DNA from: Siphonodentalium dalli
Taxonomy: Eukaryota > Mollusca > Scaphopoda > Gadilida > Siphonodentaliidae
Assembly (NCBI GenBank): GCA_032622095.1
Contig: CP136068.1
Location: 159,049,465 to 159,113,464, forward strand
Direction of reading: 5' to 3'
Length of the DNA stretch: 64,000 bases
This document shows, piece by piece, positions 668 to 22,482 of this stretch. The notes beneath the pieces are model-generated. The model ran no database searches, had not been told where the DNA came from, and saw nothing but the letters and a program-made list of their open reading frames with translations. The translations under genes and the position numbers were made by a program. Every line of letters begins with the position of its first letter. Position 1 is the stretch's first letter.

Positions 668-1305
668 GTGAGTTGAAGACCCGTCGTGTCAGAAATAATA
701 GTTAGATACGATGATAATATTGTAGTGTTCAATGGCAATATAAATATAACGCACTGTGACTTACAACCACCGTTCACTTATGCGGATACAATTAGTTCAT
801 TGTAGTGTTTAATGGCAATATAAATATAACGCACCGTGGCTTCGAATCACCCGTTCATTTATGCGGATACAATCATTTCATTGTAGTGTTTAATGGCTAT
901 ATAAATATAACGTACTTGTATTTATATTGCCGTTCTCTTATGCGAAACAATCATTTCATTGTAGTGTTTAATGGCAGTATAAATATAACGTACTTGTATT
1001 TATATTGGCGTTCTCTTATGCGGATACAATCATTTCATTGTAGTGTGTTATGGCAATATAAATATAATGCACTGTAACTTACAACCACTCGTTCTCTTAT
1101 GATACAACCATTCCACTCCCATACACAAGGAACATGGTAACATGAATTACCAATATATTATATTGTAACAAATTATTATTGGGAATAAATATTATTAAAC
1201 CAACCATTTCTGTGTAGTATTTAATGGCAATATAAATATAACGCACTGTGACTTCAAATCACCCGTTCTCTTACGCTGATACAATAAATCAATGGTAGTG
1301 TTTAA

Positions 1306-1673
1306 AGATATAATATGGACTTATTCGGGTGTGTGAAGCTGATCAGTTAGTATTCATACTATGTCAACTGGTGGAATATAGTATTCTACTAACATCACCG
1401 AACATCTCGAGCAAATCAACCGTAACACTCCATAGAAAACTTCGCCTGAACTAGCGCTCCATTGTAAATATTTACCTCTCGATTCGGGACGCAACTACAG
1501 GCGATAAACTAACGAAAACGATTTTACCATCTAGAGTCGCTACATTTAATAAATACATAAGAATGATGGTGTGTCATGTCAATTTTGATATAATATTTGT
1601 ATAAAATAAGTACTTTTAGCAAGATTATTATCCATTTCTATTTGATCACCATACCGGAGTGTTTCACATCACT
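1306..1673. mobile_element. TTAA-flanked MITE, family A, copy 1
   Basis: A 368-bp non-satellite block splits one satellite monomer exactly at gtgtTTAAtggc: TTAA lies on both sides (1302-1305 and 1674-1677) and the interrupted monomer continues afterwards. The ends are AGATAT... and ...ATCACT. A reverse-orientation homologue lies at 15918-16281 and a fragment at 19917-20163. TTAA target duplications are typical of piggyBac-type transposases; the TIRs are too short and diverged to assign a superfamily. No ORF is present. Confidence 0.75.
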
Positions 1674-3441
1674 TTAATGGCAATATAAATATGCGGATAC
1701 AATCATTTCATTGTGGTGTTTAATGGCAATATAAATATAACACACTATGACTTCGAATCACCCGTTCTCTTATGCGATACAACCATTTCTGTGTAGTGTT
1801 TAATAACAATATAAATATAACGCATGTGACTTCGAATCACCCGTTCTCTTATGAGATACAATCATTTAATTGTAGTGTTTAATGGCAATATAAATATAAT
1901 GCACTGTGACTTACAACCACCCGTTCTCTTATGCGGATACAATCATTTCATTGTAGTGTTTAATGGCAATATAAATATAACGCATGCGACTTCGAAGCAC
2001 CTGTTCACTTATGCGGATACAATCATTTCATTGTAGTGTTTAATGGATGGCAATATAAATATAACGCACTATGACTTACAACCACCCGTTCTCTTATGCG
2101 ATACAACCATTTCATTGTAGTGTTTAATGGCAATATAAATATAACGTACTGTGACTTACAACCACCCGTTCTCTTATGCGATACAACCATTTCATTTTAG
2201 TGTTTAATGGCAATATAAATATAACGCACTATGACTTACAACCACCCGTTCTCTTATGCGATACAACCATTTCATTGTAGTGTTTAATGGCAATATAAAT
2301 ATAACGTACTGTGACTTACAACCACCCGTTCTCCTATGTGAATACAATCATTTAATTGTAGTGTTTAATGGCAATATAAATATAACATACTGTGATTTAC
2401 AACCACCCGTTCAATTATGCGATACAATAATTTAATTGTAGTGATAAATGACAATATAAATATAACGCACTGTGACTTCAAATCACCCGTTCATTTATGC
2501 GGGTACAATCATTTCATTGTAGTGTTTAATGGCAATATAAATATAACGCACTGTGACTTACAACCACCCGTTCTCTTATGAGATACAATACTTTCATTGT
2601 AGTGTTTAATGGCAATATAAATATAACGTACTGTGACTTACAACCACCCGTTCTCTTATGAGATACAATACTTTCATTGGAGTGTTTAATGGCAATATAA
2701 ATATAACACACTATGACTTCGAATCACCCGTTCTCTTATGCGATACAACCATTTCTGTGTAGTGTTTAATAACAATATAAATATAACGCATGTGACTTCG
2801 AATCACCCGTTCACTTATGTGAATACAATCATTTAATTGTAGTGTTTAATGGCAATATAAATATAACGCACTGTGACTTACAACCACCCGTTCTCTTATG
2901 AGATACAATACTTTCATTGTAGTGTTTAATGGCAATATAAATATAACACACTATGACTTCGAATCACCCGTTCTCTTATGCGATACAACCATTTCTGTGT
3001 AGTGTTTAATAACAATATAAATATAACGCATGTGACTTCGAATCACCCGTTCACTTATGTGAATACAATCATTTAATTGTAGTGTTTAATGGCAATATCA
3101 ATATAACGTACTGTGACTTACAACCACCCGTTCTCCTATGTGAATACAATCATTTAATTGTAGTGTTTAATGGCAATATAAATATAACATACTGTGATTT
3201 ACAACCACCCGTTCAATTATGCGATACAATAATTTAATTGTAGTGATAAATGACAATATAAATATAACGCATGTGACTTCGAATCACCTGTTCCCTTGTG
3301 CGGGTACAATCATTTAATTGTAGTGTTTAATTGCAATATAAATATAACGTACTGTGACTTACAACCACCCGTTCTCTTATGCGATACAATCATTTCATTG
3401 TAGTATTTAATGGCAATATAAATATAACGTACTGTGACTTA

Positions 3442-4802
3442 GGGCGCGTACACATGAAGCTGCAAGAAAATATCTGCAAGAAAATATCAGGTACAATTGT
3501 ACTCTGATATTTTCTTGCTGAAAAGATTACGCCCGTGAGAAAGCGGCGGGTTAGTTGACGTTGATTGAGCTCAATGTGACTAGTGTTAGTCGTGTTTGTT
3601 GAAGTGAATTACTGCGGACAAACAACCTATAGTCCATATCGAATATTCATAGAGCTATAAAGTGTTATGGAAAATTTAAAATGCCACCTATTTTAACGAG
3701 AAAGGAACGCGCCCTCTATGCATACAGTCCAAATTAAAGTAAAACAACTAAATCAAGGCATGTGAGGTACCAAATTATAAAGCATCCCCATATACGCAGA
3801 AGGTTTCCGTTCGGGGGTGTCCACCTTGGGAAATTCTAACTGCACCCCCCTTAAATCAGAATCAGACCAAACACAAGTTTTCCATAATTCCATTTGCACC
3901 CCCTTGCACCTCAGTGCTCTTAGGCCTAATATTAGACCATGGTTCGGCCCGGTGTGCGAAAATTTTGTAATCTGAACAAGAAAATCGCAAAATCCTACCA
4001 TCTAGACTAACCTCAATCATTCCTAGAGTTGGAAATTTCAAACCTGACACCCCACTTAGGTTGGAAAATTTACATCTGATGACAATTCCAATGGCAATGT
4101 TGACCAAATGTATGACAATATTGTTTTTTTTAAATTAACTAGCAGTTTTTGACTTTTGACTGGCCACGGGGGAGGGACCAGGACACAAGCTTTCAAAGTG
4201 TTGGAAATTTCCAACCTATCACCCCACTGAGGTTGGACAGTTTCCAACTGATGCCCATTTCAGACCAAAATTTTTACCGAAAATATGCAAATATTGGTCC
4301 AAAAACAATTAATTCCCCCAAGAAATGTTTTGAAAATCAAACTACAAGAACATTTTCAACCTATTGTTGGTGTGAAATTTCCAACTAATGTTTTGGCAGG
4401 TATGAAATGTCCAACTGTTGAAAATATTGACCAAAGTTGGGGGTGAGACACACCCCAAGCCCCCCCCTGTCGCCACGTCTCTGTACACACGTATATACAT
4501 GTATATATAATACATCAGCAGTTCTGACAACCAATGTAAAATGGAAATACGTAGTATGTTGAAACAGACGATATTATTGATGGATCATAACTCGAGTGCT
4601 TGAATTGTTACGATCATATCCCTGCGAGATTAGTTAACGGATACCGATGGCCACATATCAAGGTGAACACATATCACCAATTGGCGATAAAATATCAGCG
4701 CGCTGCCTTCGTAGGATATTTTCCGGTATTATTTATTTCATTGGTCAAGTAAGTCACATGGGGCATACCTGATATTTTCTTGCTGGTCATGTGTACGCGC
4801 CC
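3442..4802. mobile_element. Non-autonomous PIF/Harbinger-like element (1.36 kb)
   Basis: The satellite reads gactTAcaacc in intact copies. Here it is split as gacTTA, then GGGCGCGTACACATG..., and it resumes after ...CATGTGTACGCGCCC with TTAcaacc. That gives a 3-bp TTA target duplication (3439-3441 and 4803-4805) and inverted termini of about 35 bp sharing GGGCGCGTACACATG and CAAGAAAATATCAGGTA. A 3-bp TWA duplication with GG...CC ends fits PIF/Harbinger. The interior has no transposase ORF, only short direct repeats built on ttggaaatttccaac, which also occur at 18380-18545. Confidence 0.75.
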
Positions 4803-5170
4803 TTACAACCACCCGTTCACTTATGCGGATACAGTCATTTCATTGTAGTGTATAATGACAATATACATATAATGCACTATGACTTCGAATCACCCGTTCT
4901 CTTATGCGATACAACCATTTCTGTGTAGTGTTAAATGACAAAATAAATATAACGTACTGTGACTTCGAATCACCCGTTCTCTTATGCGGATACAATCATT
5001 TAATTGTAGTGTTTAATGGCAATATAAATATAACGTACTGTGACTTACAACCACCCGTTCAATTATGCGATACAATAGTTTAATTGTAGTGTTAAATGAC
5101 AATATAAAAATAATGCACTGTGACTTCGAATCATCCGTTCTCTTATGTGAATACAATCATTTCATTGTAG

Positions 5171-5338
5171 TGTATAATGGAAATATAAATATAACGCACT
5201 GTGACTTCGAAGCACCTGTTCACTTATGCGGTTATACACAGGATCAGACTGATACGGGCGAGTGGTGGATCGGATCGGGATCTGAAGACGGCTCGCACAC
5301 GGGACCGTCTCAGGACCACACCTTCCTCACGCAAAACG
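5171..5338 (+). CDS. Gene 1 exon: first part of MAM domain
   Basis: The exon begins after tttcattgtag (ag at 5169-5170) in the last satellite monomer and ends before gtgagt at 5339. Both ends are phase 1, joining the CBM14 exon upstream and the 10679 exon downstream. The product reads NGNINITHCDFE, APVHLCGYTQDQTDTGEWW and then HTGPSQDHTFLTQN. This is the standard start of a MAM domain: CDFE..xLCG, an aromatic pair, and the TGPxxDHT block. MAM domains are extracellular beta-sandwich adhesion modules. Two later AGs (5241, 5247) also look like acceptors, but they give phase 0 and would remove the two N-terminal domain cysteines. An acceptor in the preceding monomer (exon start 5090) is also phase 1 and open, adding 27 residues, so alternative starts are possible. 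Confidence 0.85.
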
Positions 5339-6240
5339 GTGAGTCTCAAACTGGTTCCGGTCAGGGCCAAACCTTCCCCACAGAATACATTGTGTCTCAA
5401 ACTGTTGTCGATAAAACATGGACACGGCATCCTCGTGCAAAACGGTGAGGCTCAATCTGTTGTTGATTCATCAGGGTCACGCTTTCCTCTTTTAAAACGA
5501 TTTGAGTCTCAAATATATTTATGTCAATCAGGGCCATGCCTTCCTCTCACAAAATGGTGAGTTTCATACTGATGTCGACCAATCAGGGCCACGCCTTCCT
5601 CTCGCAAAATTGTGAGTTTCATACTGATGTCGACCAATCAGGGCCACGCCTTCCTCTCGCAAAATTGTGAGTTTCATACTGATGTCGACCAATCAGGGCC
5701 ACGCCTTCCTCTCGCAAAATTGTGAGTTTCATACTGATGTCGACCAATCAGGGCCACGCCTTCCTCTCGCAAAATTGTGAGTCTCATACTGATGTCGATC
5801 AATCAGGGCCACGCCTTCCTCTCGTAAAATGGTGAGTTTCATACTGATGTCGATCAATCAGGGCCACGCCTTCCTCTCGCAAAATTGTGAGTTTCATACT
5901 GATGTCGATCAATCAGGGCCACGCCTTCCTCTCGCAAAATTGTGAGTCTCATACTGATGTCGATCAATCAGGGCCACGCCTTCCTCTCGTAAAATGGTGA
6001 GTCTCATACTGATGTCGATCAATTAGGGCCACGCTTTCCTCATTTAAAACGATGCGCGTGAGTCTCAAATATGTTTCTATCAATCAGGGCCATGCCTTCC
6101 TCTCGTAAAATGGTGAGTATCAAACTGTTGTCGATTCATCTTTCCTCGTTTAAAATAATGCGCGTGAGTCTCAGACATGTTTCTATCAATCAGGACCACG
6201 CCTTCCTCTCGCAAAACGATGGGTGTTAAACTGGTCCTAC
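5339..6240 (+). repeat. 55-bp minisatellite copied from the MAM exon 5' splice junction
   Basis: About 16 tandem units follow the donor directly. A unit reads cagggccacgccttcctc, then tcgcaaaattgtgagttt, then catactgatgtcgaccaat. The real exon end and donor (5312-5350) read caggaccacaccttcctc, then acgcaaaacg, then gtgagtctcaaact. The match covers about 25 exonic and 15 intronic bases, so each unit brings a copy of a 5' splice site. Units farthest from the exon are the most diverged (5980-6240), and the first two near 5350-5460 are irregular. Confidence 0.88.
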
Positions 6241-6768
6241 CATGGTCACACATTCCTCATTCAAAAGAGCAACTCATTGACGAATAGTTCCGTCAAGTTT
6301 GTCCACCAGGCAGAACCATTGGGTTATTCCGTAATACAATTTGGCCCTTCGTTTTTTTGTGTGTGATACCCATAATATATGAGCAGGGGGATGCTCGTTC
6401 CCCGGTCCCACAGTAGAGGCACTCCTGTATTGGACTCCGGTAGTGGAAACTTCACTAATGGTGTCCAGAGCCGTCTACCTTGCGGCAGCTTACAAAATTC
6501 AGGATAAGAGTAACAAAAGCATAGAATATAACAGTCTAGACTACCTTGGATTAACCTCCCTTTATCATATTCCCGTTTAAAAAGCAACTGATAAATTAAC
6601 CGCTCTTTATTAAGCGCATGGCATATTCGCCCAAAACTAATAAACAAGGTGTCATAACTCATGTGAGAAATTGTCTGGCGGATTCCAAATTCGAACTTGA
6701 ACCGTACCCGTACCCTAGATATCCTTATAGAATACCCGTTGATTTGATCCTTTCCCAATAATCAGTTG
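6241..6768. other. Intron 2 sequence without recognisable content
   Basis: This is unique intronic sequence. A 144-residue open frame on the minus strand (6758-6324) shows no known motif and no splice support, and I do not call it a gene. Confidence 0.5.
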
Positions 6769-7309
6769 CACTGAAAAAAAAAACTTAGTCATAGCCTTAG
6801 TCAACCCGTAACTTAGTTATTTTTGACTAACTTAGCCAAAAGTAACTAAGTGTTACCTTAGTCACATCTTACTAATTCTTAGTTACTAAGGTTGACATTT
6901 TCGTGATTCAGTCATGCCGGCAAAACTCAATAGTATACTTATCGGCGACATATTATACACGGCAATGACACCATACAGTATAACTGAATCTTAATCTGCT
7001 CCATACAGTATAACTGCTTTTTTCAATGTTTTGCACAAGTGAACGCAAACCGCCAATTGGCTTTAACCAAGAGTGCATCAGATAATGAAAAATTGCTTCG
7101 ATGGATAGGATATGTTTGACTAACTTAGCCAAAAGTAACTAAGTTTGACCTTAGTCACATATTACTAATACTTAGTTACTTAGGTTAATATTTTCGTCAA
7201 AAAAAAAAATTAGTCATAGCCTTAGTCAACCCGTAACTCAGTTATTTTTGACTAACTTAGCCAAAAGTAACATAATGACTAAGGCTATGACTAAGTTTTT
7301 TTTTCAGTG
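6769..7309. mobile_element. CACTG-ended foldback MITE, copy 1
   Basis: The element starts CACTGAAAAAAA followed by cttagtcatagccttagtc and ends with the inverse, ...ggctatgactaag followed by TTTTTTTTCAGTG. Inside, the motif cttagtcaa / ttgactaag recurs many times, and an internal copy of the left half lies at 7200-7270. No coding content is present. The second, shorter family member is at 8709-8999. CACTG ends suggest a CMC/Chapaev-like origin, but I could not fix a target duplication, so the superfamily is open. Confidence 0.7.
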
Positions 7310-8708
7310 TACATTTTATATGCATGTACAACTACAAGAGAGGATATACGTGTACTAGTACTGCACTGTGCGCAGCAGTGTAACTCACACGCTTCAATGT
7401 CAACAAATAGACAACAAACAATGTATATTATATAATATCGCATTCATTCTGTGTTAATCGGGTCGGTACGTATATGGCGAGTACGTAATTTTAACTCAAA
7501 TTATTGTTTCTCCATTTTGTGGCCGACATTTTAATCACTAAAATCAGAGTGATTTAGACGTGATATTGGCGTCGAACGAACTAAAAGAGACGACATATTA
7601 CATAAATAACAACCATGGCGTATTTAGAGAGCTAATAAAATCAGGATAAAAGAGAAGTTATGAAAATAATCTGCGAAACCGTTCATCGTGTATTGTTGAA
7701 CTAATTATTCAGACTCAGTCAGAGCTCTGTTTTCATTCAACAAGTGGACAATTTGTCAATAATGGTTTGATTCTTTATTCTACATGTGAAAGAACAGCGC
7801 CTGAAATATTTGCTGCCAAAATTAGATGTGTGACTGATGACTTCTTCAAGGTTACATGTACACAGTACAGTACATACGGTGTGGTGAACGTTTTTCGCAA
7901 TGGCATTGTGGACGAGCACCCTAAGGCCTAACTTGAACTTGATGTGCATTCCGGCTTGGTGGTCGAGGCTGTTACCTGTTCGATTGCGGACAGTTGTTAA
8001 AGACGGTCTGATTTCGGTTCCTTCGATAACCGGACAAGTTTATATTCTGCGAAAAAAAGGCTTATTAATCATTGACAATTTCCACTAAATTCATCGAGAG
8101 CAGAGATGCATGCCAATTAATCGATGAATCATGATATGATCCTTTCAATCGAATCAATGGTCTGACAATGTCGTCTGATGTCAAGCAATAGTGACAATAA
8201 TATCAACGACTCAACGAGCAGCTACATGTGTATTAATATTATAATGTTGAAAATGCAGTTCATGACAGTACTTGTTCAGAATCTAATTCTTTCAGAGCAC
8301 ATCAATATGATCGACATGCATGTACAAGTTCTACAAGAGAGGACATACGTGTACTAGTATTGTAGTGTGCGCACCAGTGTAACTCACACGAGGTTCAATG
8401 TCAACAAATAGACAAACAACAATGAAACCGATGCTGTGTCGTGATGGATGATCACATTGTTTTAATAGTTAATAAAATTTATTTTTATACCTGTAAGTCA
8501 TTATTTTCAGTTATTTTAATCTGCAGTTGCGATGTTCAGCTGAGATTGCAGGGCTATGATACCCCCAATAATTAGGTCCAATTAAATGTACTAATGTATA
8601 CAGTGATGACATAGTCAAGCCGTAGTTATTTCTGACTAAGGCCTTAGTTATTTCTGACTAAGGCCTTAGTCATTTCTGACTAAGGCCTTATATTATATGT
8701 TATATCTA
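7310..8708. other. Intron 2 sequence with a short duplicated stretch
   Basis: No exon is visible. A stretch near 7320-7420 (tgcatgtacaactacaagag ... tcaacaaatagacaa) is repeated with changes at 8320-8425, so a local segmental duplication is likely. From 8610 the cttagtcatttctgactaag motif begins, leading into the next MITE. Confidence 0.5.
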
Positions 8709-8999
8709 CACTGAAAAAAAAACTTAGTCAAAAGTAACTAAGTTACCTTAGTCAGAACCCCCGTCTCAAAACTAACTAGCTTAGCTTAGTCAGAAATGAC
8801 TAAGGTTGCCCTTAGTCATTTCTGACTAAGGTCTGACTAAGATTGCCCTTAGTCATTTCTGACTAAGGCCGTAGACCTTAGTCAGAAATGACTAAGGGCA
8901 ACCTTAGTCATTTCTGACTAAGCTAAGCTAGTTAGTTTTGAGACGGGGGTTCTGACTAAGGTAACTTAGTTACTTTTAACTAAGTTTTTTTTTTCAGTG
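8709..8999. mobile_element. CACTG-ended MITE, nearly perfect palindrome
   Basis: This 291-bp element runs from CACTGAAAAAAA followed by cttagtcaaaagtaac to gttacttttaactaag followed by TTTTTTTTCAGTG. Its halves mirror each other almost base for base, including blocks such as agaacccccgtctcaaaac / gttttgagacgggggttct. Transcribed, it would form a hairpin of about 140 bp. Confidence 0.85.
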
Positions 9000-9415
9000 T
9001 GGTTTCAATTTTATTCTCGAAAGAATTCTCTGTCAGGGTTCAAGTTGAAAAGAATAAACCAAAGTTTACTCTCATCTTAATATAGAATAACACGTCACCG
9101 CTGACCTGATCTGGATATGGAACCAACTGGTAAGTGTATTTGATAATGAGATAATGGGTCATCATGCATTATATTCGCAGTTGATACATGGCAAACTTAT
9201 AAATGTCTCTAGGACCATGATTATCACGAAGATTGAGCAAAAGTGAGATCTTAGATAATGTTGCACGTGAAACAATTGTCATTTATACTCTTACAGTTTT
9301 ATAAGCAATCATCGCCAATGGCATGGTGAGTCGGTGATTAAAATAATTACTTGTAAATATGTGTTCCAATGCTTTGATCATTCTATTTTGACTCTCTTGT
9401 GGCATTTGTAGTTAA

Positions 9416-9935
9416 AGATACGGGTGGTTTTGGCGGTTAGTATGCTGTTAAAATATTTACCTGCGTCAAAAACCGCCATAAACAGAAAGAATAGTAAAAT
9501 ATAGACAGGATTTGTTCTTACAACAATCAGAAATATGGCATAAACAGTATGTTATTGTCAATGTTTTCACATTTGTTATGTAAACAAAAGCAAAAAAAGT
9601 TACGTTACCGGGCTTTTGTTTAGATCCGGATATGGTAAACATAAAGAGCGTTATTTGGTACTGTTTCCCTGATATGGAAATGATCTAGAGCGTTTATATC
9701 ATTTGTGTGTTATTAACCAATATAATTGCGCCGTGTTATGTAAACAGAAGCACAACTTCTGTAACACGAGCAGGCTCTTGTTTGCGTACACCATCGTACG
9801 TCTTGACGACAATACACTATTTACGCACTGATTATGTTTGGCATATGAACATATATATATATTTTTCAATATTCCTTCTGTTGGTGGCGATTTGAACAAA
9901 TGTGAATATTTCTGTAACGAACGCCGCTCGTGCCT
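9416..9935. mobile_element. TTAA-flanked MITE, family B, copy 1
   Basis: TTAA lies at 9412-9415 and 9936-9939. The ends are AGATACGGGTGG... and ...CGCTCGTGCCT. Near-terminal inverted blocks include ggcggttagtatgctgttaa and aaccgccataaacagaaag. A related 354-bp copy is at 46604-46957, sharing cgccataaacagaaagaata and agtatgttattgtca. There is no ORF. The right TTAA also serves as the left TTAA of the next element. Confidence 0.65.
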
Positions 9936-9939
9936 TTAA

Positions 9940-10470
9940 AGATGGATTATCTCTTTAAATAAAAAAATTCAAATAGTTGCGCGGGTATAATATAATAAAT
10001 ATGAACTGAAGACCCCTGTCCGGAAAGGCTTCTATCTATTAATATTGATCTTATTTCGAATATTTTATTATGATTAATTGGGACACTTTATTGGTCTATT
10101 TTTAGTACAGACCATTCGGACGATACCATATAGCGATAGAGAGCATTGTGCTGTTCCTATAGATACGTACCGAACGTCAAATGTCCCAGATTGATTGATT
10201 GTATTGTTTTATTCCATAGTAATAAGCGACAATGAGTCTAATTAACGTTTATTTGTGACAAAATTACACAATAAAATTGCTACGTCTATGTTAACAGTAA
10301 CCACTATTGTTCGTTAGCTGAACAAAGACACCTTTTTAGACCAGACTATATTCGAAATAAAATAAATATTAATCGATAGAAGCATTTCCGGACAGGAGTC
10401 TTCGATTCATACCTAATAGTTTATACCCCGATAACTATACAATAGATGTTTACAACGAGATAATCCGCCT
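9940..10470. mobile_element. TTAA-flanked MITE with about 140-bp inverted ends
   Basis: The left arm AGATGGATTATCTC...gacccctgtccggaaaggcttc is mirrored on the right by gaagcatttccggacaggagtc...GAGATAATCCGCCT. TTAA flanks both sides (9936-9939 and 10471-10474). The arms are about 140 bp and the middle has no ORF. Confidence 0.75.
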
Positions 10471-10678
10471 TTAACTGTGTTAGGTAACAATGGTTGCACC
10501 ATGGAACATCTTGTTATTGGAGAATTACTGAAAAATTCAAATGACAACAGAGTGTTTTAATTTTTCTCACATTCTTCGCGATAATAATGGTTCTACGGAC
10601 ATTTTGATTTTTAACATATACCAAGTGTGAATGACTAGCTCTTCGGCTCTCACAATGTATTTATTTTAATTTCGCTAG

Positions 10679-10845
10679 GACACTATGGATACATCAGTTC
10701 ATTCAACCTCGCACAACCAGACAGCCATGATGCCAGTGTCGCCAGGTTGATCTCGTCGGAATTCGACAATGGGAGAGGCTATTGCATACGTTTTTCATAC
10801 AATATGTATGGCAAAGATATTCGGTCGTTGCGAGTTTACATATCA
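10679..10845 (+). CDS. Gene 1 exon: MAM domain, second part
   Basis: The exon starts after ttttaatttcgctag (phase 1; the split codon is Gly) and ends before gtaagt at 10846 (phase 0). It reads HYGYISSFNLAQPDSHDASV, then ARLISSEFDNGRGYC, then IRFSYNMYGKDIRSLRVYI. This matches the MAM core: the G.Y.Y..S block, A.L.SP-like strand, the third conserved Cys in GYCIRF, and the YxMYG...L.V strand. It continues the previous exon directly across the 5.3 kb intron 2. Confidence 0.9.
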
Positions 10846-12012: not shown

Positions 12013-12123
12013 ACCCAAGGACATACCGGATATCCACTCTTCAAGGCCGAGGGTAACGCCGGAATAGATTGGATGACGACTGAAATGGATGTAGACTATG
12101 AATACACCGTTACCCCATTCAAC
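12013..12123 (+). CDS. Gene 1 exon: MAM domain, third part
   Basis: The exon is exactly 37 codons, phase 0 at both ends, between ctccatttcag and gtaagt. It encodes TQGHTGYPLFKAEGNAGIDW, then MTTEMDVDYEYTVTPFN. It fits the MAM strand that normally carries LW...G..G..W: here the final Trp (GIDW) and the following hydrophobic strand are kept, while the first LW is replaced by LF. It fits between the exons at 10679 and 14481 without frame change. Confidence 0.85.
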
Positions 12124-12415
12124 GTAAGTCACATAGCTCTATTCAATGGTAATAACATGATTGTTTTTTTTGCAGCCAACATCGATAAATTATATATCAA
12201 ATTGCATGACGACAGATGACAGACAGACGAAATGATAATACAAATGCAGAAGAATTCATTTTTTTTAATGTCGGTATATAGCATGTTTAAATTCGTTTTT
12301 TGTAGGGAGAGGTTTCCCTTAATGAAAAATTATAGATTTGTGAGAGAGAAGAGAGAGGAGAGAGACAGTGTATAGTTGAAGTTTGTATTGTAAATAAATG
12401 TCACTTGGTATAATA

Positions 12416-12685
12416 GTTAAGTAGTGGTTAAGTCAGTGCGTTAATGTATTATCAATGTGTGGTATAATAGTTAAGTAGTGGTTAAGTCAGTGCGTTAATG
12501 TATTATCAATGTGTGGTATAATAGTTAAGTAGTGGTTAAGTCAGTGCGTTAATGTATTATCAATGTGTGGTATAATAGTTAAGTAGTGGTTAAGTCAGTG
12601 CGTTAATGTATTATCAATGTGTGGTATAATAGTTAAGTAGTCCTTAAGTCAGTGCGTTAATGTATTATCAATGTGTGGTACATGT
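12416..12685 (+). repeat. 54-bp minisatellite, 5 copies, in intron 4
   Basis: The unit tggtataatagttaagtag, tggttaagtcagtgcg, ttaatgtattatcaatgtg is repeated five times with almost no divergence (one ggtt to cctt change in the last copy), so the array is young. It lies in the intron after the third MAM exon and does not resemble a splice junction. Confidence 0.92.
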
Positions 12686-12769
12686 GATGGTTAGATGATT
12701 GCTTTTAAGGCATTGGATTTTCTTTTCTTACATATATGAATAGAAGTATACTACAATAATCTTTATTAA

Positions 12770-13152
12770 CCCTTTACCCAACAAACCGGCCAAAAACGGC
12801 CAAAAACAGCCTAAATTATCTTGGGTCTGTCTCAATAAAACCATACAAATATGGATATCATTGGAACCGGTTCATTGACCACATTGTGATGGTTACAGTT
12901 ATGCCCTGTGCCAATGCATTCTCTTATATATGCGAGTCGACCACAGGTCGCCTCGCATATATAAGAGAATGCATTGGCCTAAACAAAATCTTTTTTTAAC
13001 ACTTTTTACCATTTTTTCTTACATTCTTTAACAATGTTATAATTTTTAATGTGTTAAGCCGATGCATTCTCTTATATATGCGAGGCGACCTATGGTCGAC
13101 TCGCATATATAAGAGAATGCATTGGCACAGGGCCGTTCTGTTGGGTAAAGGC
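12770..13152 (+). mobile_element. piggyBac-type MITE with two internal hairpins, copy 1
   Basis: TTAA (12766-12769 and 13153-13156) flanks CCCTTTACCCAACA...TGTTGGGTAAAGGC. TTAA plus CCC-starting ends is the piggyBac signature. The interior has two near-perfect hairpins of about 66 bp (12907-12975, 13063-13127), each with arms ccaatgcattctcttata tatgcgag and their complement, the second inverted relative to the first. No ORF is present. An opposite-orientation copy is at 23571-23962. Confidence 0.85.
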
Positions 13153-13535
13153 TTAAAAAGTGCCCACGTGATATAAGGTGTCAATACACATTTATATATC
13201 ATTCATGATAATAATTATTCTACTTCAGACAGTGACTTCGCAATGTAGTCGTTGTTTTATACAGGAACATGTCCCAAGTCCTGCACATTGAACATGTTCC
13301 GTGATATAAGTATTAAAATAGATACGTTAGGTTAATATACAATAATCTTGTGTCGGTAATTCAATTTAATTTAATTTAATTTTAATTTATTTTTAATTTT
13401 TAATTTTGAGGCGTGGAATGGGTTTATATGGTAATAATATGATGATACGAAACACGTATTGGACCAACCACATAATCCTCAAACAACTGTCGAAATAGGT
13501 CATGAATTCAGGAAATACTATATATATGAATGACG

Positions 13536-13549
13536 TCACACACACACAA

Positions 13550-13598
<49 letters not shown>
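13536..13598. repeat. (CA)n/(TA)n microsatellite
   Basis: A run of cacaca is followed by a pure tata run in intron 4, just before a retroposon-like block. Confidence 0.9.
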
Positions 13599-13599
<1 letters not shown>

Positions 13600-13604
13600 C
13601 TAGA

Positions 13605-14065
13605 AGGTGACCCGACATCGTCCGGGCTTTGTCCTTGAATTGTCCATTTTGAAGGTCAATGTCAAGTGGGGTCACCATTTGACCAGTCCAAAACACTTCC
13701 AGGACAAAAGTACCCCTATGTATAAAATTTCGTCGAAATCCCATCAAAATTGGCGATTTGACCTTGAATTGACCCGATTTCAAGGTCAAGGTCACGTCGC
13801 ACGGGAAAATGAATATGCTTATGAGACTCCCCATACGAAGGTACCCCCACATACCAAGTTTCATCGAAATCCCGTTATATTCGGGCGTTTGACTTTGAAA
13901 TGACCCGATTTCAAGGTCAAAGTCACGTCGCACGGACAAATTAATAGGCCCATGCCACCCGCCGGCCGAAAATACCCCCACATACCAAGTTTCATCGAAA
14001 TCGGCTGGGCCGTTTTCGAGTTCATCGCGAACACACAGACACACACACACACAGACACACAAACA
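13605..14065 (+). mobile_element. Retroposon-like repeat with a microsatellite tail
   Basis: Internal copies of a diverged unit of about 110 bp (ttcaaggtcaaggtcacgtc, gcacgg, cataccaagtttcatcgaaa) end with tcggctgggccgttttcgag, ttcatcgcgaac and an acacacagacacacac tail. Blocks of this kind (aagttt.atcgaaatcgg...gccgttttcgag...cgcg + CAGACA tail) are common 3' ends of RTE-like LINEs and SINEs in marine invertebrates. That is recalled family knowledge, not a search. The long open frames here on both strands are by-products of the repeat. Confidence 0.55.
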
Positions 14066-14480
14066 GATCCTCCAAAATATATAATAGATATATATATATA
14101 TATATTATCTGAAAAGTCTAATCATAGTCGTATACATTAAATAAGCGGTTTCCATAATCCGAAAATAAGCGATTGTGCTGTACAAATAGACCCTCTACAA
14201 TTATGCATGTGACATGTCCCTTCTAATATAGTAATTGAGGTGGGTCTATTTAATTTCCAGATGCACATGGACAATATCTCAAATTAATGCAAAATGATGT
14301 GTAACCGACAAAGTGTTAAATACAAAAATGAGTGATTTCCTCAAATCCTGTATACGTGATGGCAGTGATCAAACCAGGGTAGATAGGGACTGAACTCTAC
14401 CTTGCAGTTTGGCAGAAATGTGACGTTATTGGTGGTGTACCGTATACAAGGAAGTTACACTTTTGTGGGTTTTGTTTTAG

Positions 14481-14604
14481 TTGGTGTTTGAAGCGACAAC
14501 ACTATCGTACGAGCATATGTCGTCCCTGAGCGGATATTACTTCTACGGGAACAAGGGAGATATCGCTATAGACGACATCCAGGTGTACAATACATCATGC
14601 AAAC
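14481..14604 (+). CDS. Gene 1 exon: end of MAM domain
   Basis: The exon lies between gggttttgttttag (phase 0) and gtgagt at 14605 (phase 1). It encodes LVFEATTLSYEHMSSLSGYY, then FYGNKGDIAIDDIQVYNTSCK. FEA, then GDIAIDDI and a final Cys, is the diagnostic C-terminus of MAM domains (consensus GDIALDDI...C). The four conserved MAM cysteines are now all accounted for across the four exons. Decayed copies of the 3' half of this exon and its donor lie downstream at 14637-14740 and 18003-18240. Confidence 0.92.
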
Positions 14605-14636
14605 GTGAGTATACGTCATTGGGACGTGATTATTAC

Positions 14637-14740
14637 GACATTGGAACACATCTCATTCACATTCTATTACTACTATGATAACACTAGACGACATCCAAAC
14701 GTACAACACGTCACGTATACGTGACTATTACGTCACATGG
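14637..14740 (+). pseudogene. Decayed copy of the last MAM exon end plus donor
   Basis: This intronic stretch repeats, with deletions, the end of the preceding exon and its intron start: attctattactactatg, then ctagacgacatccaaacgta, caacacgtcacg and tacgtgactattacgtcac, against tactictacgggaa..., tagacgacatccaggtgta, caatacatcatgc and gacgtgattattacgac in the working exon region. The GDIAI codons are deleted, so it is not functional. Confidence 0.7.
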
Positions 14741-15490
14741 ACGTACTTATGTTATTCCCCGGTTTTAGATGTCCATTAAGGAATATACAAGAGGTGGTGT
14801 GTGACTGAACGAGCTGATTAAATTTCCAGACTACAACAGTTTCCAGTATCATCATATTTGGTGAATAAGTTGGAAGGGAGATATCAAGGAAATATCTCAC
14901 CAGATATAGTCCGTGATCGCATTTATTACATCGTAGACATCATAACATCATGCTATACATGCGGCCATATTACACACATTCATCTTGTAACATATGGAGG
15001 ATATTTATGGCTTTGGGTGAGCAATTCAGATCGGCTCACCCACGTATACACGTACATGTATAATTAGTAGACTGTAAATACAGAATTAGCCATTCTGAAT
15101 ACCTATATCAGAGTGCTACTTTGTGGACAATTATTTCATTGTTTATCTGCATTGATTAGCTGTATCAGATGTTCGTTTCTATAGTATTCGCCTTAGGTTC
15201 GTTTCTTCGTTAGGTTAGGCTTTCTCGCAATTTCGACCTTTTCTTTGTATTAATCAGCTGGCTTTTCATATGCAACTTGTCAATTCTTGCCCAAACATGT
15301 GTTCATTAATTACCATTCATCGCACGTATTCTTAATTTATTAGCTTTACTTTTAATAATTAATAATATGTCAAACTGTTAATGCCACTGTGGTGATCGGA
15401 TATTTTATAATGCAAATATATTAAGCGAATCCCGCTTGGTTAATTCACACATGTGCATTCTTTGTATATCAGAATTTGTAACACTGTGTT
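14741..15490. other. Intron 5 sequence, nothing recognised
   Basis: This is AT-rich intronic sequence without repeats or domain-like translations, up to the 25-bp minisatellite. Confidence 0.5.
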
Positions 15491-15494
15491 ATGT

Positions 15495-15855
15495 TACTGT
15501 GCATTCTGATTACCTATACATGCCTACATTCTGAATACATATACATGCCTTCATTCTGAATACCTATACATGCCTGCATTCTGAATACCTATACATGCCT
15601 GCATTCTGAATACCTGTACATGCCTGCATTCTTAAAACATATACATGTCTGCTTTCTGAATACCTATACATGCCTTCATTCTGAAAACATATACATGCAT
15701 GCATTCGGAATACATATACATGCCTGAGTTCTGAATACCTATGCATGCCTGCATTCTGAATACCTATACATACCAGCATTCTGAATACTTATACGTGGCT
15801 GCATTCTGATTACCTATACGTGGCTGCATTCGGAATACCTATACATGGCCGCATT
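15495..15855 (+). repeat. 25-bp minisatellite in intron 5
   Basis: About 14 copies of tgcctgcattctgaatac ctataca are present with moderate divergence. Because three units make 75 bases, an open minus-strand frame of 71 codons results; it is not a gene. Confidence 0.92.
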
Positions 15856-15917
15856 CGTATTACAACAACTTAGAATAGACAGGTAAGACCTACTGAAATA
15901 TTATGAAAAACATTTAA

Positions 15918-16281
15918 AGTGAGCACGGTAGGGTGATCAAATAGAAATGGAGAATAATCTTGTTCAAAGTTGTTATTTAAAAAAATATTATATCTACTTT
16001 GACAACACACACCGTCGTTTATTTAGTATGTACTAATTAAATGCAGTGACTCTCGATGATGAACTCGTTTTCATTAGTTTATTGCCGATAGATGCGTCCC
16101 GAATCGAGTTGTAAATATTTACAATTGAGCGTAGTTCTGACGATGTTTTCCATGGAGGGGTACGCTCGATTTACTTCAGATTGTCGACGGTGTTAGTAGA
16201 ATGTTACATTCCTCCTATTGGCATGGTGCCTGAATACTAAATTATCAGTTTCACGCACCCGAACAAGTGCATAATATGTCT
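15918..16281. mobile_element. TTAA-flanked MITE, family A, copy 2 (reversed)
   Basis: This is the reverse complement of the 1306-1673 element, sharing gggtgatcaaatagaaatgg, gcgtcccgaatcgagttg and tgttagtagaatgttac. TTAA flanks both ends (15914-15917, 16282-16285). It is 364 bp long and has no ORF. Confidence 0.78.
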
Positions 16282-16321
16282 TTAACCACAGCTCAGAAAA
16301 AGAGAGTGGTGCAAATAGCTT

Positions 16322-16815
16322 TGAATCATATATAGATTGCTACAATGCTTTTACATTTAAACATATATAGATTGCTACAATGCTTTTACATTTAAACATA
16401 TATAGATTGGTACAATGCTTTTACATTTAAAGGGACTTAGATATTATTAAAACATATATAGATTGGCACAATGCTTTTACATTTAAAGGGTCTTAGATAT
16501 TATTAAAACATATATATATATATATTGGTACAATGCTTTTACATTTAAAGGGACTTATATATTATTAAAACATATATATATTGGTACAATGCTTTTACAT
16601 TTTAACATATATAGATGGTACAATGCTTTTACATTAAAACATATATAGATTGGTACAATGCTTTTACATTTAAACATATATAGATTGGTACAATGCTTTT
16701 ACATTTAAACATATATAGATTGGTACAATGCTTCTGCATTTAAACATATATAGATTGGTACAATGTTTTTACATTTTAACATATATAGATTGGTACAATG
16801 CTTTTACATTATGAT
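16322..16815 (+). repeat. 35-bp tandem repeat in intron 5
   Basis: About 14 copies of acatatatagattggtac, aatgcttttacatttaa occur, some extended with agggacttagatattatta. A stray copy with its flank lies at 17486-17560, so the array was once larger or has been partly moved. Confidence 0.9.
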
Positions 16816-18002
16816 ACATTTAATGGGACTTAGATATTATTAAAATATAAAATAGTAACAGGACGATATCGGGAAAATTATGACATCTTACAGATAACGA
16901 GTCGAAACTTGATGTGACATGCGCTTAGCATGGCATATAGTCAGCAAACTGCAACTGATGGTGGTCTTATCAAAACATTTTGGCATCTTTTTAACTCATT
17001 GGGAGTAATTTTCAAAAATGTAGAAATGCTACCTTTGGCATTAAATGAATCTTGTTTTTGTGGGGTACTTTCTAAAACTATTTTCAAAATTTTAATAAAC
17101 CGCTCCAGGGTCCAGCTTCCACCTCAAAATTCATGTCATCAGAACGAGGAGCAATTTGTCTGCGAGAAATTGGGACCTTGGTCATCATCACATTTAGCCT
17201 CGAATCTTCTTTAATATGCCTAACAGACAACCTCCCCTTTCTTCTGACATCCATACATTTGTGCACCACCTTCATTATGTAGGGAAATTATATAATGGAT
17301 AGGTTGTAAGCCATTATTTCTTTCACTCTACTTGTGTTGACAAACGGAAAGGCCGTAAGGTCCGTCAGCCAGTGCTCCATTCTGACTTGTTATTGCCATT
17401 CCGGAGGGCTAGGTGTGATTTACGTTGACCCGGCAGATGTGTTACATTGTCAGGCACCCACTTACCTGTATTGGTTAACTTATAAAACATATATAGATTG
17501 ATACAATGCTTTTACATCTAAAGGGTCTTAGAAATTATTAAAATAGAAAATAGTAACAGAGCGATATCGGGAAAATTATAACATCTTACAATTGTCCAAC
17601 ATTGGGTAAAATAAACATGTACAAAACTCACCCGATCGATTGGACCAAAGTCACACATAAACTACATCAAGTCTTCCATAGAAACACCTCACCATATCAA
17701 TACATCAACTTGATAATCATTTATACAATGTTAGACGATCATATTTTCAAGAAACTCAAGAGACTGACCCTTTCTGAATAATTTCAGAACGATATTTTCC
17801 TCCAATTAGCCAGGTGTAAAAATTAGGGTTGACTGCACTTGGACAAAATATTGGGCTAAAGTTGTGAAAATTATATATGGAGATATTGTGGACTAAGCAA
17901 TATACTGTAGCAACTTCTAATGAACGTATACACGTTTGTGCATACATATAATTAATAACACATATTGATTGCCTGTGTTACACTTATTATATCATATGGC
18001 CT
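16816..18002. other. Intron 5 sequence, no supported exon
   Basis: This is mostly unique sequence. A minus-strand frame at 17275-17084 (63 codons) has fairly protein-like composition but no motif or splice sites that I can defend. A dispersed block at 17395-17490 matches 11870-11965. Confidence 0.45.
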
Positions 18003-18240
18003 CATATGGGTCACGTTCTGTTACTTCTACGGGTGCAAGGGGTATCGATATTTATGACATCCACGCGCACAATACATCACGTAGTCGTGATTATTACGCC
18101 ATCGTGATGTAAGTATTACGTCATCGGGTCTCACCTCGGCCATATTCTATTACTTCTACGGGAACGACGGGATATCGCTATAGACGACATCCACGCGTAC
18201 ACTACGTCATGCAGACGTGGATGTTACGTCATCGGAACAC
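18003..18240 (+). pseudogene. Two decayed copies of the last MAM exon end plus donor
   Basis: Two adjacent copies (about 18003-18115 and 18116-18240) repeat the exon at 14481-14604: gttacttctacgggtgcaag, atcgatatttatgacatcc and gtcgtgattattacg in the first; attacttctacgggaacgac, gggatatcgctatagac, gacatccacgcgtac and cgtcatgcagacgtgg in the second. The second has a one-base loss relative to the exon before the IAIDDI codons, so it is frameshifted. They lie 3.4 kb downstream of the exon, in the same intron as 14637-14740. Confidence 0.8.
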
Positions 18241-18569
18241 ATCTTACTCATCGACTATTATGTTTTATTGTATGCTTTATTCTCTGATCCAATACCAGAG
18301 AGAAAGAAAAACAAGATAGAATAGAAAATATACATATATACATATATATATATAAATATTACAAATTGTTTGACCCAAATGGCCATCAGTTGGAAAATGT
18401 CCAACTTTGTGGGTGTCCGGTTGAAAATGTCCAACAGTTGGATAGATTGAGGTACATATTGGAAAACTGCAAACCACAATGGGCTACAAATGGGTTTACC
18501 CAAGTTCAAGGGCGGGGGAGGTAGAGTTGGACATTCCGAGACCATCTAGTCAGGTCCCTGTCCAAGCTG

Positions 18570-18790
18570 TAAGTCAGTCAGTCCCGTCGCTACCCTGGTT
18601 TGAATGCTGCCATCATGTATATAGAGTTCAGTCCCATCGCTACCCTGGTTTGAATGCTGCCATCATGTATATAGAGTTCAGTCCCCTCGCTATCCTGGTT
18701 TGAATGCTGCCATCATGTATATAGAGTTCAGTCCCCTCGCTACCCTGGTTTGAATGCTGCCATCATGTATATAGAGTTCAGTCCCCTCGC
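18570..18790 (+). repeat. 50-bp minisatellite ending at the lectin exon acceptor
   Basis: Four to five near-identical units of gttcagtcccctcgctac, cctggtttgaatgctgcc, atcatgtatatagag run into the first C-type lectin exon. The last unit breaks off after gttcagtcccctcgc and continues as the exon. Each unit therefore carries the ttcag that is one of the two candidate acceptors of that exon. Confidence 0.9.
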
Positions 18791-19009
18791 AATTGTTTCT
18801 TGAAGATATCCCGTCATGCCCTGCTGGTGCTGTGACACGATTGGACAACTCGACCAACACTCAAGTGTGCTATTCGGTCCATACAATTCGACGATCTTGG
18901 TATGACGCCGCTAGGGTGTGCAGGGCAGAAGGAAAATACGGACACCTGATAACAATTAACAACGCAGACGAGCAGCAATTCATAGCTGACCACATATCAC
19001 AAAGCAAAG
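18782..19009 (+). CDS. Gene 1 exon: C-type lectin domain, first half
   Basis: The exon encodes FLEDIPSCPAGAVTRL, then NTQVCYSVHTIRRSW, then AARVCRAEGKYGHLITINNA and EQQFIADHI. This is the first half of a long-form CTLD: the N-terminal Cys pair (CPAG...VCY), W..A...C, G.L..I...E. Two acceptors are phase 1 and open: ttcag ending 18781 (exon from 18782, adding PSQLFLED) and ttgtttcttgaag ending 18805 (exon from 18806, directly IPSC). The second has the better pyrimidine tract, while the first is the one copied in the neighbouring minisatellite. I list the longer form. The donor gtaagt at 19010 is phase 1. C-type lectin domains bind sugars, often with calcium, outside the cell. Confidence 0.85.
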
Positions 19010-19775
19010 GTAAGTCATCACACCACATATCACATACCACATGTCAGTCATCATCGTAACACATATCACATAACACATGGTAGTCATCATCGTAACGCAT
19101 ATCACAAAACAACGATAAGTCATCGCCGTACCACATATATCACAAAACAACGATCAGTCATCGCCGTACCACATATCACAAAAAAGGATGTAAGATCAGC
19201 CCTCACCATAATATAAATCACAAAACAACGATCAGTCACCGCCACATATCACAATTCAAAGGTCAGTAATCTCAGTAAAACTTTATATCACAAAACAAAG
19301 ACCAGTCATCACCGTAACACATATCGCAACACAAATGTCGGTCGTCGCCGTTACACATATCACAAAACAACAATCAGTCATCGCCGCATATAACAAAATA
19401 AGGCCAGTCATCGCCGTAACACATATTACAAAACAAAGATCGGTCATCGCTGTAACCCATATCACAAACAAAGGTCAGTTATCGTCGTAACACATATCGC
19501 AACACAAATGTCCGTCATCGCCGTTACACACATCGCAAAACAAATGTTGGTCATCGCCATTATACATATCACAAAACAACAATGAGTCATCGCTGCATAT
19601 AACAAATGGAGGCAAGGCATAGCCGTAACACATATCACAAAACAGAGATCGGTCATCGCCGTTACACATATCACAAAACAAAGGTTGGTCATCGCCTTAA
19701 CCTATATCATAAAACAAAGGTCAGTCATCACCATAACACACATCACAAAACAAAGGTCAGTCATCGCAGTAAAAC
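19010..19775 (+). repeat. 36-bp minisatellite copied from the lectin exon 5' splice junction
   Basis: About 21 tandem units start at the donor. The consensus unit is acacatatcacaaaac, aaaggtcagtcatcgccgta. The exon end and donor read accacatatcacaaagcaaag then gtaagtcatcac, so each unit contains the last ~20 exonic bases and the donor, with gtaagt mostly changed to gtcagt. Because 36 is a multiple of 3, several minus-strand frames stay open across the array; these are not genes. Confidence 0.9.
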
Positions 19776-19916
19776 TTGGCCAGTTTCAGATGGTATATCC
19801 ACTGATAAAATATTGGGGTAAATATGAGTAACGTAGGGTAAGTCAAAAGCATGTGGAGTCATTTTGACCAACCCACACCCTTCAGCAAGTTAATATGGCT
19901 AACTCTTGTCTTAGTC

Positions 19917-20163
19917 AGTGTGACCACTCCATAGAAAACATCATCTGAACTACGCTAAATTGTAAATATTTACTTCTCGATTCGGGACGCAACTGTCGGC
20001 GATAAAGTAACGAAATCAATTTCACCATCGAGAGTCACTGAATTTAATTAATATATAATAATAGCGTTGTGTGTTGTCACTTATGATTTAAGATTTGTAA
20101 AAATAACTGCTTTGAGTAAGATTATCCGCCATTTCTATTTGATCACCACACCGGGGTGTTTCT
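19917..20163. mobile_element. TTAA MITE family A, truncated copy
   Basis: The stretch from gtgaccactccatagaaaac to gatcaccacaccggggtgtttc is collinear with 1425-1665 (including cgattcgggacgcaact and ccatttctatttgatcacca). One end is missing and no TTAA pair is seen. Confidence 0.7.
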
Positions 20164-22180
20164 TCCAATATGACCGAAATGTTTTAGATTAATGAGCTCT
20201 AATTCACAATAAGGTTTGCAAAATGGCCACAATGAACCAATACAATATTCTAATCAGAAAACATAGATCACTTTGAAATGTAAAATGTTGTCCCATCTTA
20301 CAGGAATCTATATAAAAACAATTATGAAACAATTGTTGTTTTCAAATTTACACTTTCTTACAGTACTCATATCTGTAAAATTACTGCATGTTTTTAGTAT
20401 AATAGTTTACCGAAATGTGCTATGATATTCCAATATATTGAGAGGGACCTTGCTTTTTCGTTATAATGTTTCTTGTGTCAGAAATTCACCATGTAAAATG
20501 TTGTCGTATCCGCTCGATTTGCGAAATCAATAACAACACTCGAAAAATAGGGAACGTCAATATATAGTATATATAGTCACCACCAATTGGCTTATTTAAG
20601 TACTTTATGACCAAAACTAACCTTAGAACATCGCTGATTTAGATGACAATTTCCTAGAAAAAAGATATTTGACGGAAAACTTTGACAAAATGGATTGTAA
20701 ACATCACGTGACTAAAAACTCGGAATACCCTCCGAACGAAATTAAATAGTTAAAATCGTTAAATAGTTTTTGTCTTTAAACATGGCAAAACACTTGAATA
20801 TGCATTAGACTGACAACCTAAAATACGATATTCATATATAAACATAATTTATTAAATAATGTGGCTATATATCAAGTATTATTTTGTTACAGGGTAGAGA
20901 TTCCCGGTCTTTCCCCAACTCTATTTTTATTGTCGCACGCGTTTCCCTCTTTGGAGTGGTTTGCAGATGCAAACTATTCTTATTAAAATCAATCAAAACA
21001 AGGTTACACGCATAATACACAGTGGCAATAATCCACAACATCTGTAATCCATGCAGGTATAGATAACTGCGCAATCGGTCATCCAAGTTAATTTTTAGGG
21101 CTGTTGTATTGTTTAATCAACTTTCTCTGAAAAACAAAAACATGTCGAAATCTCGTTTTGGTTTCGGTTTGATGGATGACTAAATGTGTTCAAAATATTT
21201 TTGAAAACAATATTAGGGTTAATTAAACTATAAGTATTTCAAATTACAATATATGCTAGCTTACTAGTTTTGTTGTTCAACTGTCTGTGGTAATTTCTGT
21301 TGGAAAATCTCTGAAGTATGAATTTATACCAGGCCATTTGTGTCAAAATGCACCAGTATCACAAAATATGATGCATCTGATATGGTAGGTAATGTTGAAA
21401 ATATAGCCTACAGTGTAATGTTTTGCTAAATATGTTAGAAAGTATCAATTGTGCATGAGGTATTGGTGAAATAGGGGCAAAATAGACAGCCTCATACATC
21501 CTTATGATCCAGCTCACATAATTGCCAACTTGGCTTCCCATACCAAAAAATAGTCCCAAAAAGCAAATGGCCACATAACTGTGTTCAACTGATGGAGGGT
21601 GCCTTCAACTCAATGGATTTGTAGCTAAAATAGTGAGTTATTTTACAAAATGACGGTCCTTCTCCTCATCCTGGAATCCTAATCTATAAGATGCCACAAT
21701 AATTATATTTGTTTGCTTTATTAGTTTTGACTTCTGGTGAGTGGCATAATTTCACTCCCTTTCTAGTTAATTTTCTCAATCAAATATATCTTTTAAAAAT
21801 ATGGATGTGATGTCAACAAATTGTTCAATCATATTCCTATATCCTTGTGAAATTTCATGTCAATTGGAAACAGTCTTTCAATGGCTGGCATTTATCAGAG
21901 AGAGGGGTATAAAAACTCATTCGGCCATCTTTGTCACGTTTAGGATACCCTTAAAACAAAATAGATTTTGACGGTTACTAGATATTGATTCGTCTGTCGG
22001 TTAACACTGTGCTTCGACTTTAAACTGTTTGTAATTATGTTAAGTTTATGACGTTGTAATTCGGTACATTGATTTTAGGCAGAATTTATGTTTTGAAAAT
22101 CTCACATTTCAAGCAGTGTGTGGTAGTGATCGATCCACCGTAGTGAGGGAGATAACTCTGTCAGTTTGATTCTGTTACAG
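20164..22180. other. Intron 6 sequence, nothing recognised
   Basis: This is long AT-rich sequence between the lectin exons after the 36-bp array. I see no repeat structure, domain or element end. Short open frames at 20865-21086 and 21359-21574 (minus) carry no motif. Confidence 0.5.
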
Positions 22181-22428
22181 ACCTGCAGAGGGTAGGCGTG
22201 GACGAATTTTGGACGTCCGGGAACGACGAAGTGGATGAATCACATTTCATGTGGACCGACGGTGATTGTGCGCATCCTGTGCTGAACTACACTGCATGGA
22301 AACCAGGACAACCGAACAACGTGGGCGCCAATCAGAACTGTTTACTCTTAGAGTATCCGGATTACGCGTACACGTGGGGCGATGGCAACTGCACCGATAA
22401 GAAACCGTTTATATGCGAACAGTCCTAA
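22181..22428 (+). CDS. Gene 1 last exon: C-type lectin domain, second half, stop
   Basis: The exon starts after ttctgttacag (phase 1, making Asp with the upstream G) and ends with TAA at 22426-22428. It encodes DEFWTSGNDEVDESHFMWTD, then NYTAWKPGQPNNVGANQNC, then TWGDGNCTDKKPFICEQS. It holds the remaining CTLD landmarks: W..G, W..GQPN (the calcium/sugar-site position usually occupied by EPN or QPD), W.D..C and FICE. The QPN triplet resembles the mannose-type EPN, but sugar specificity cannot be read from this. The protein ends 3 residues after the last domain Cys, so the lectin domain is C-terminal with no membrane anchor, which fits a secreted protein. Confidence 0.93.
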
Positions 22429-22482
22429 ACGCGATGGCAACTGCACCGATAAGAGACCGTTTATATGTGAACAGTCCTAAAC
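22379..22482 (+). repeat. 52-bp tandem duplication of the gene 1 coding end
   Basis: Positions 22379-22430 (gcgatggcaactgcaccgat ... agtcctaaac) are repeated at 22431-22482 with two differences (gaaacc/gagacc and atgcga/atgtga). The unit includes the stop codon, so the second copy lies in the 3' untranslated region. Confidence 0.95.

Follow-up and report, generated by a model that had tools for sequence, protein, structure and literature searches.

Tandem copies of exon-intron boundaries have been described in lancelets under the name "mirages" (PMC3087553, PMC3902484). In the lancelet globin gene BflGb6, a unit of 150-160 bp joins the 3' end of an intron to the start of exon 2, and in BflGb9 a 157-bp unit covers the 3' boundary of exon 2; mirages of 10-72 bp in Adh3, as well as further loci, are cited in the same report (PMC3087553). 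Others were found in TnC and in PGBD5, the latter with units of 60 and 108 bp (PMC3902484). The lancelet authors considered the origin of mirages unclear, concluded that reverse transcription-PCR (RT-PCR) suggests regular splicing, and proposed that mirages provide a route to new introns (PMC3087553). Differences in length between alleles and somatic polymorphism are further traits ascribed to mirages. In humans, paralogues within segmental duplications carry variable tandem repeats at exon-intron boundaries, with 27 intron modifications (PMC2812944). Here, we report boundary copies in the scaphopod mollusk Siphonodentalium dalli, in a gene (gene 1) for a CBM_14-MAM-C-type lectin protein that lies in a 64-kb stretch of DNA (C8:159049465-159113464), hereafter called the window. 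We propose, with a probability of roughly 0.7, that the repeat arrays of gene 1 are mirages seeded by untargeted short tandem duplications that chanced to span exon ends.

The seven exons of gene 1 within the window lie on the forward strand and join as one frame of 441 amino acids across six introns, all of them GT-AG, and the product scores above the Pfam cutoffs for CBM_14, MAM, and Lectin_C. According to the splice model, with Pfam support for exons A, B, F, and G, the chitin-binding CBM_14 domain is encoded by exon A (362-667, phase 1-1, donor at 668), the MAM domain by exons B (5171-5338), C (10679-10845), D (12013-12123), and E (14481-14604), and the lectin domain by exons F (18806-19009) and G (22181-22428, with the stop codon). 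The exon with the start codon is not within the window; in the stretch just upstream (L002), one exon appears CBM-like by eye, without a domain scan.

The junctions of gene 1 were compared with the window by blastn, using 120-mers centered on each of them. Counting the self-match, acceptor B gave 36 matches, donor B 14, donor E 4, donor F 17, and the end of the coding sequence 3. Acceptor F gave three matches, confined to the intron side, and the other 8 of the 13 splice junctions, including those of exons C and D, matched nothing in the window except themselves. Gene 1 thus holds tandem copies of four of the 13 junctions, acceptor B and donors B, E, and F, and both blastn and reading of the copies bear out the claim of a first-pass annotation of this DNA that at least four independent repeats in gene 1 copy the adjoining splice junction. 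The units differ in length and sequence, as that annotation had also noted, and each repeat has grown from its own adjoining junction.

The most extensive case is acceptor B, whose 80/81-bp unit recurs in 32 further copies in the intron from about position 706 onward. Since exon B begins inside the last unit, the unit consists of ~20 nt of intron end and ~60 nt of exon start. Its copies were delimited by Tandem Repeats Finder (TRF) at 719-1073 and 1690-3441, where they were also read individually, and at 4810-5231, where the array reaches into exon B and the final unit is the real acceptor. Between the last two arrays lies a DNA-transposon-like insertion (3442-4802) bounded by inverted ends of 16 nt and a TTA target repeat, recognized by reading the sequence, which we take to be PIF/Harbinger-like; it sits within the 80-bp array, which had in part formed before the insertion. 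The array unit at 1957 shares 96% identity with the real acceptor B (next best, 0.90) and, being the unit most similar to the real junction, suggests sequence exchange between exon and array. The other end of exon B is copied downstream in a 55-bp family, with 12 copies of the exon end and GTGAGT at 5361-6259 (TRF at 5524-6135, together with diverged copies found by blastn). At donor F, a 36-bp unit forms ~20 copies of the exon end and GTAAGT (19021-19772; TRF and blastn). Donor E is represented by three degenerate copies of a ~120-bp unit, found by blastn at 14685-14750, 18029-18127, and 18158-18238, the latter two 3.4 kb from exon E, behind other arrays.

Two further repeats of gene 1 had been linked to exon ends. 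The duplication of the end of the coding sequence was confirmed by TRF as a 52-bp unit at 22379-22482, which covers the final 50 coding nucleotides, stop codon included, plus the next 2 nt, in exactly 2.0 copies and with no base common to the breakpoints. A 50-bp array that was said to end at the lectin acceptor (18578-18790; TRF and blastn) does adjoin exon F but is not a junction copy, as it consists of intron sequence alone and its last base lies 15 nt before the exon. Elsewhere in the window, a 94-bp array overlaps the stop codon of a minus-strand open reading frame (ORF; 51630-51082), with 51091-51024 recurring at 50903-50836 (82% identity), and is the second repeat in the window grown over an open-frame end. 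The end of this ORF resembles, by eye, the final membrane segment of a receptor of the Cys-loop type, although the ORF gave no Pfam match over the cutoff and no PDB match.

The proposed check of aligning the array consensuses to their flanking junctions upheld the likeness. We aligned 11 array units to the gene 1 exons with 40 nt on either side and compared the scores with those of 100 shuffles that permuted single bases within 40-nt blocks. With the 80-, 55-, and 36-bp units, none of the 100 shuffles reached the score, and the match covered the exon end expected. This test is passed trivially by the 52-bp unit, which is inside exon G, and the 50-bp unit owes its pass solely to its own final copy at 18766-18790, which ends 15 nt short of exon F. 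The remaining 6 of the 11 units (54, 25, 35, 131, 22, and 21 bp) match no gene 1 exon in the shuffle-tested alignment, and for these six we rejected the idea that the remaining arrays of the gene are old junction copies. As to a dispersed origin of the units, a genome search with the stretch 5239-5400 gave a single match among the best candidates, itself. For the junction-matching arrays of gene 1, the similarity is far beyond chance.

The repeats described here share several characteristics of mirages: they are tandem and minisatellite-like, each unit joins exon and intron across the splice site, duplication can affect a 5' or a 3' boundary, and unit length depends on the locus. In the lancelet reports, as here, units span either boundary (10-72, 60, 108, and 150-160 bp there, 36 to ~150 bp here), many but not all copies carry AG or GT, and copies are homogenized within clusters. 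The first-pass annotation, which knew of no named mechanism for such junction repeats, was thus mistaken in that the phenomenon is already named in lancelets; what is new here is the host animal and the sampled rate. In contrast to the lancelet mirages, reported gene by gene, those of S. dalli occur in a very different genome, where up to 32 copies fill an intron and one exon is amplified at both ends, and their frequency, 10 of 49 exons in our sample, could be set against a position-matched null. Lancelet genomes are near 0.5 Gb in size. Chromosomes of Branchiostoma floridae are labeled up to BFL19 (PMC11175523), compared with 2.23 Gb in 9 contigs here (2,226,750,531 bases; contigs of 190-301 Mb). 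The human paralogue repeats are similar in being minisatellites at exon-intron boundaries, with units of ~30 bp on average, but they vary among recent paralogues and are tied to RNA-supported new or alternative introns (PMC2812944), whereas the arrays of S. dalli stand in existing introns. Another report, PMC5896119, concerns whole-gene duplications and has no bearing on boundary copies. Beyond lancelets and the human study, we recognized no report of boundary repeats in the literature searched, mostly without subscription papers, which is weak evidence of absence. Introns are also said to be gained by tandem genomic duplication of exon sequence with splice signals. The copies in gene 1 likewise contain duplicated exon sequence and splice signals but are located within existing introns, and no new intron between duplicated exon segments was found in gene 1.

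Gene 1 is not alone, as boundary copies occur across several genes of this genome. We sampled 49 other exons, 39 of CCT chaperonin genes and 10 encoding MAM domains, which were located by domain search and picked by coordinate with their flanks unseen beforehand; L-numbers other than L002 designate exon loci. Of 53 CCT matches, two long uninterrupted ones and six second copies of used exons were excluded, as were six more for size, and the 10 MAM exons were taken from 150 matches, those scored among 285 candidates. Ten of the 49 exons, on contigs C2, C4, C5, C6, and C7, have boundary copies. Tandem copies of the exon end accompany 7 of the 39 CCT exons, at the acceptors of L025 (55 bp), L037 (~83 bp, 73% identity), and L050 (~150 bp) and at the donors of L036 (63 bp), L039 (39 bp, 8 matches), L042 (clearest copy 113 bp further on), and L047 (75 bp). 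Three of the 10 MAM exons have tandem donor copies, namely, L064 and the sister loci L065 and L067. As judged by eye, the nearest copy retains the splice dinucleotide in five of the seven CCT cases, L039 and L042 having lost it, and the nearest copy of L064 is also without it. A boundary copy was present in one of the six second CCT copies, paralogues of the used exons. Several CCT genes have such a second copy 37-169 kb away with 88-99% identity (C7:133433378/133489158, C8:26613240/26650366, C1:68370935/68539505, and C1:54104851/54270895); these are either recent segmental duplicates or uncollapsed haplotypes. A dense cluster of MAM-domain matches, some within frames that run uninterrupted for as many as 834 codons, occupies C7:93.42-93.80 Mb.

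The boundary copies look mostly like a by-product of genome-wide tandem duplication and not like the work of a process aimed at splice sites. Arrays with a period of at least 20 hold 15,935 of 190,000 random genome bases (8.4%). Because exons tolerate only the end unit of an array spanning a junction, a fair comparison for junctions is the share of intron positions that lie in the terminal unit at either end of a local repeat; these end units cover 4.97% and 5.12% of 65,318 intron positions, and 3.4% and 3.6% of 174,331 positions in random genome pieces. End units overlapped 8 of the 98 predicted junctions of the sample versus 4.94 expected (P = 0.12; observed/expected ratio 1.62, interval 0.70-3.19), with a denominator that includes doubtful junctions (two acceptors, those of L068 and L071, are probably misplaced, and at three donors, those of L041, L044, and L048, the matches stop at the last domain positions and may not mark splice sites at all). 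The excess was also not significant without the sister locus L067 (7/96 versus 4.81 expected, P = 0.21) or for CCT exons alone (5/78 versus 4.09, P = 0.39), and these binomial P values are approximate, since cases cluster by gene. By plain coverage, a local same-strand copy was found at 9 of the 98 junctions compared with 13.4% of the 65,318 intronic controls, and at 4 of the 13 junctions of gene 1 compared with 33.7% of its intron positions; in a looser control, 63 of 388 and 10 of 89 random positions had a copy over their center. The single process acting repeatedly at junctions that the first-pass annotation envisaged is so far not supported, and we set aside a special junction mechanism, the end-unit test not being significant in the sample; the comparison with other intron positions proposed there gives it no significant support for the sampled junctions, gene 1 by itself being enriched.

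That splice sites, donors above all, are germline hot spots of tandem duplication at ~1.5-3 times the intron background, for example through transcription- or splicing-linked breaks or template switches, nevertheless deserves to be weighed, although we consider it quite unlikely. Several results favor it and weigh against untargeted seeding: gene 1 itself (4/13 versus 0.69 expected, P = 0.0038, a post hoc value for a gene chosen on these grounds), the MAM exons (3/20 versus 0.46, P = 0.011, with sisters making up two of the three cases), the donors without L067 (6/48, expected fraction 0.0494, P = 0.030), and the total after adding the acceptors of L037 and L050 by eye (10/98, P = 0.026, with controls not read by eye). 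The CCT cases, moreover, fall into three of the nine gene loci as grouped by coordinate (three at C2:20.44-20.48 Mb, two at C4:24.38-24.40 Mb, and two at C7:133.4-133.5 Mb). Yet units range from 36 to ~150 bp and reach variably into exon and intron, and acceptors contribute 1 of 49 against 7 of 49 for donors (P = 0.059; by eye, 3 and 7, P = 0.32), a donor excess that could equally stem from selection against upstream decoy acceptors. The data do not require targeting and leave room for a modest preference, above all for donors. A second alternative, that copies are retained on purpose as splicing decoys or alternative exon ends, strikes us as highly improbable. The AG is present in 31 of the 32 acceptor-B copies (columns intact in 31 and 32) and the GT in 11 of the 12 donor-B copies (11 and 12), two decoys would keep the frame (the acceptor at 5090, +81 nt, and the donor at 19043, +33 nt), and boundary repeats of human paralogues can alter splicing (PMC2812944). 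However, these dinucleotides are kept no better than the rest of the unit, the share of less conserved columns being 0.46 and 0.76 for acceptor B, 0.18 and 0.53 for donor B, and 0.05 and 0.42 for donor F, where the GT columns are intact in 11 and 17 of 20 copies and the G is among the least kept. Use of most decoys would bring a premature stop (31/32 for acceptor B, 14/14 for donor B, including one without GT, and 8/9 tested for donor F), boundary copies also occur in housekeeping chaperonin genes, and the lancelet RT-PCR suggested undisturbed splicing (PMC3087553). The sequences give no sign of selected use of the copies, so that the earlier suggestion of junctions retained as decoys finds no backing, the G of the donor-F copies tending to be lost.

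Untargeted seeding as we propose it would begin with short (~35-160 bp) tandem duplications arising genome-wide, without a splice-site preference demonstrable in the sample, most likely when staggered breaks are filled in and their ends joined. Duplications within exons would be purged, and one spanning a boundary would leave a whole working junction beside the exon, with the extra copy becoming intron. Splicing pairs the nearest acceptor and donor across an exon (exon definition), and for this reason outward copies would be poor competitors and the change nearly neutral. Some seeds would then expand to arrays by unequal exchange or slippage, arrays would swap sequence with the real exon, and the remaining seeds would decay to ghosts. 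Genes would vary in their proneness, with gene 1, rich in minisatellites, affected at its stop codon as well as at four of its junctions. Paralogues give these events a relative order. L065 and L067 (91% identical) have an array at the MAM donor that is lacking in L068 and L072 (84-85%) and in L073 (76%), so that this array is most simply derived; conversely, the acceptor copy common to L050 and L058 (97% identical) predates their split.

How the seeds arose is suggested by the youngest ones that can be read. The 52-bp duplication shares no base at its breakpoints, the L067 seed, compared by eye with L068, shares at most one, and L025, L036, and L047 seem, by eye, to carry a few filler bases between copies. 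Such blunt or near-blunt seeds, although few, would fit fill-in and end joining better than slippage. In the human genome, the most frequent kind of short (<100 bp) insertion is the small tandem duplication, which results from fill-in and nonhomologous end joining at breaks with 3' overhangs (PMC8355091). The short units and blunt or nearly blunt seeds of S. dalli resemble them, but those duplications were seen at Cas9-made breaks in mouse and human cells (PMC8355091), whereas the ones reported here are deduced from sequence and were followed by array growth. Slippage at preexisting short homologies, which would be equally untargeted, is an unlikely but conceivable source of the seeds: ATACA occurs close to either end of the sequence from which the 80-bp unit derives, and the later growth and homogenization of the arrays fit slippage or unequal exchange, but the breakpoints and filler bases just described argue for break repair.

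The position-matched null makes a junction-aimed process largely unnecessary and opens the question of whether, across animals, mirages can be predicted from the general rate of short tandem duplication and nothing else. It may further be asked how frequently these copies serve as intermediates on the way to new introns, displaced exon ends, or decoy splice sites. If exon ends were hot spots after all, perhaps through nicks linked to transcription or splicing, a mutation process coupled to splice sites would be common to lancelets and an unrelated animal with a large genome.

Other features of the region are noted briefly. A candidate second gene at 43.5-53.4 kb gave no Pfam family (three minus-strand frames, E up to 1) and no PDB match, and Rfam detected nothing in the window at gathering thresholds. 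Upstream of the window, L002 contains two arrays (2193-3766 and 4491-9428), one with 68 copies of a 23-bp unit and one with ~60 copies of a 77-bp unit, neither of which matches the exon regions compared. Within the window, large degenerate arrays related to TTAGGG occupy 34168-34527, 37343-37674, and 38176-40809, with a GC skew of 0.80 over 38001-40000. The stretch ~28824-30385 recurs ~2.4 kb away at 31214-32777, with identical or near-identical minus-strand ORFs. A LINE-like element at 55998-59798 has an uninterrupted frame of 1266 codons with endonuclease and reverse transcriptase domains.

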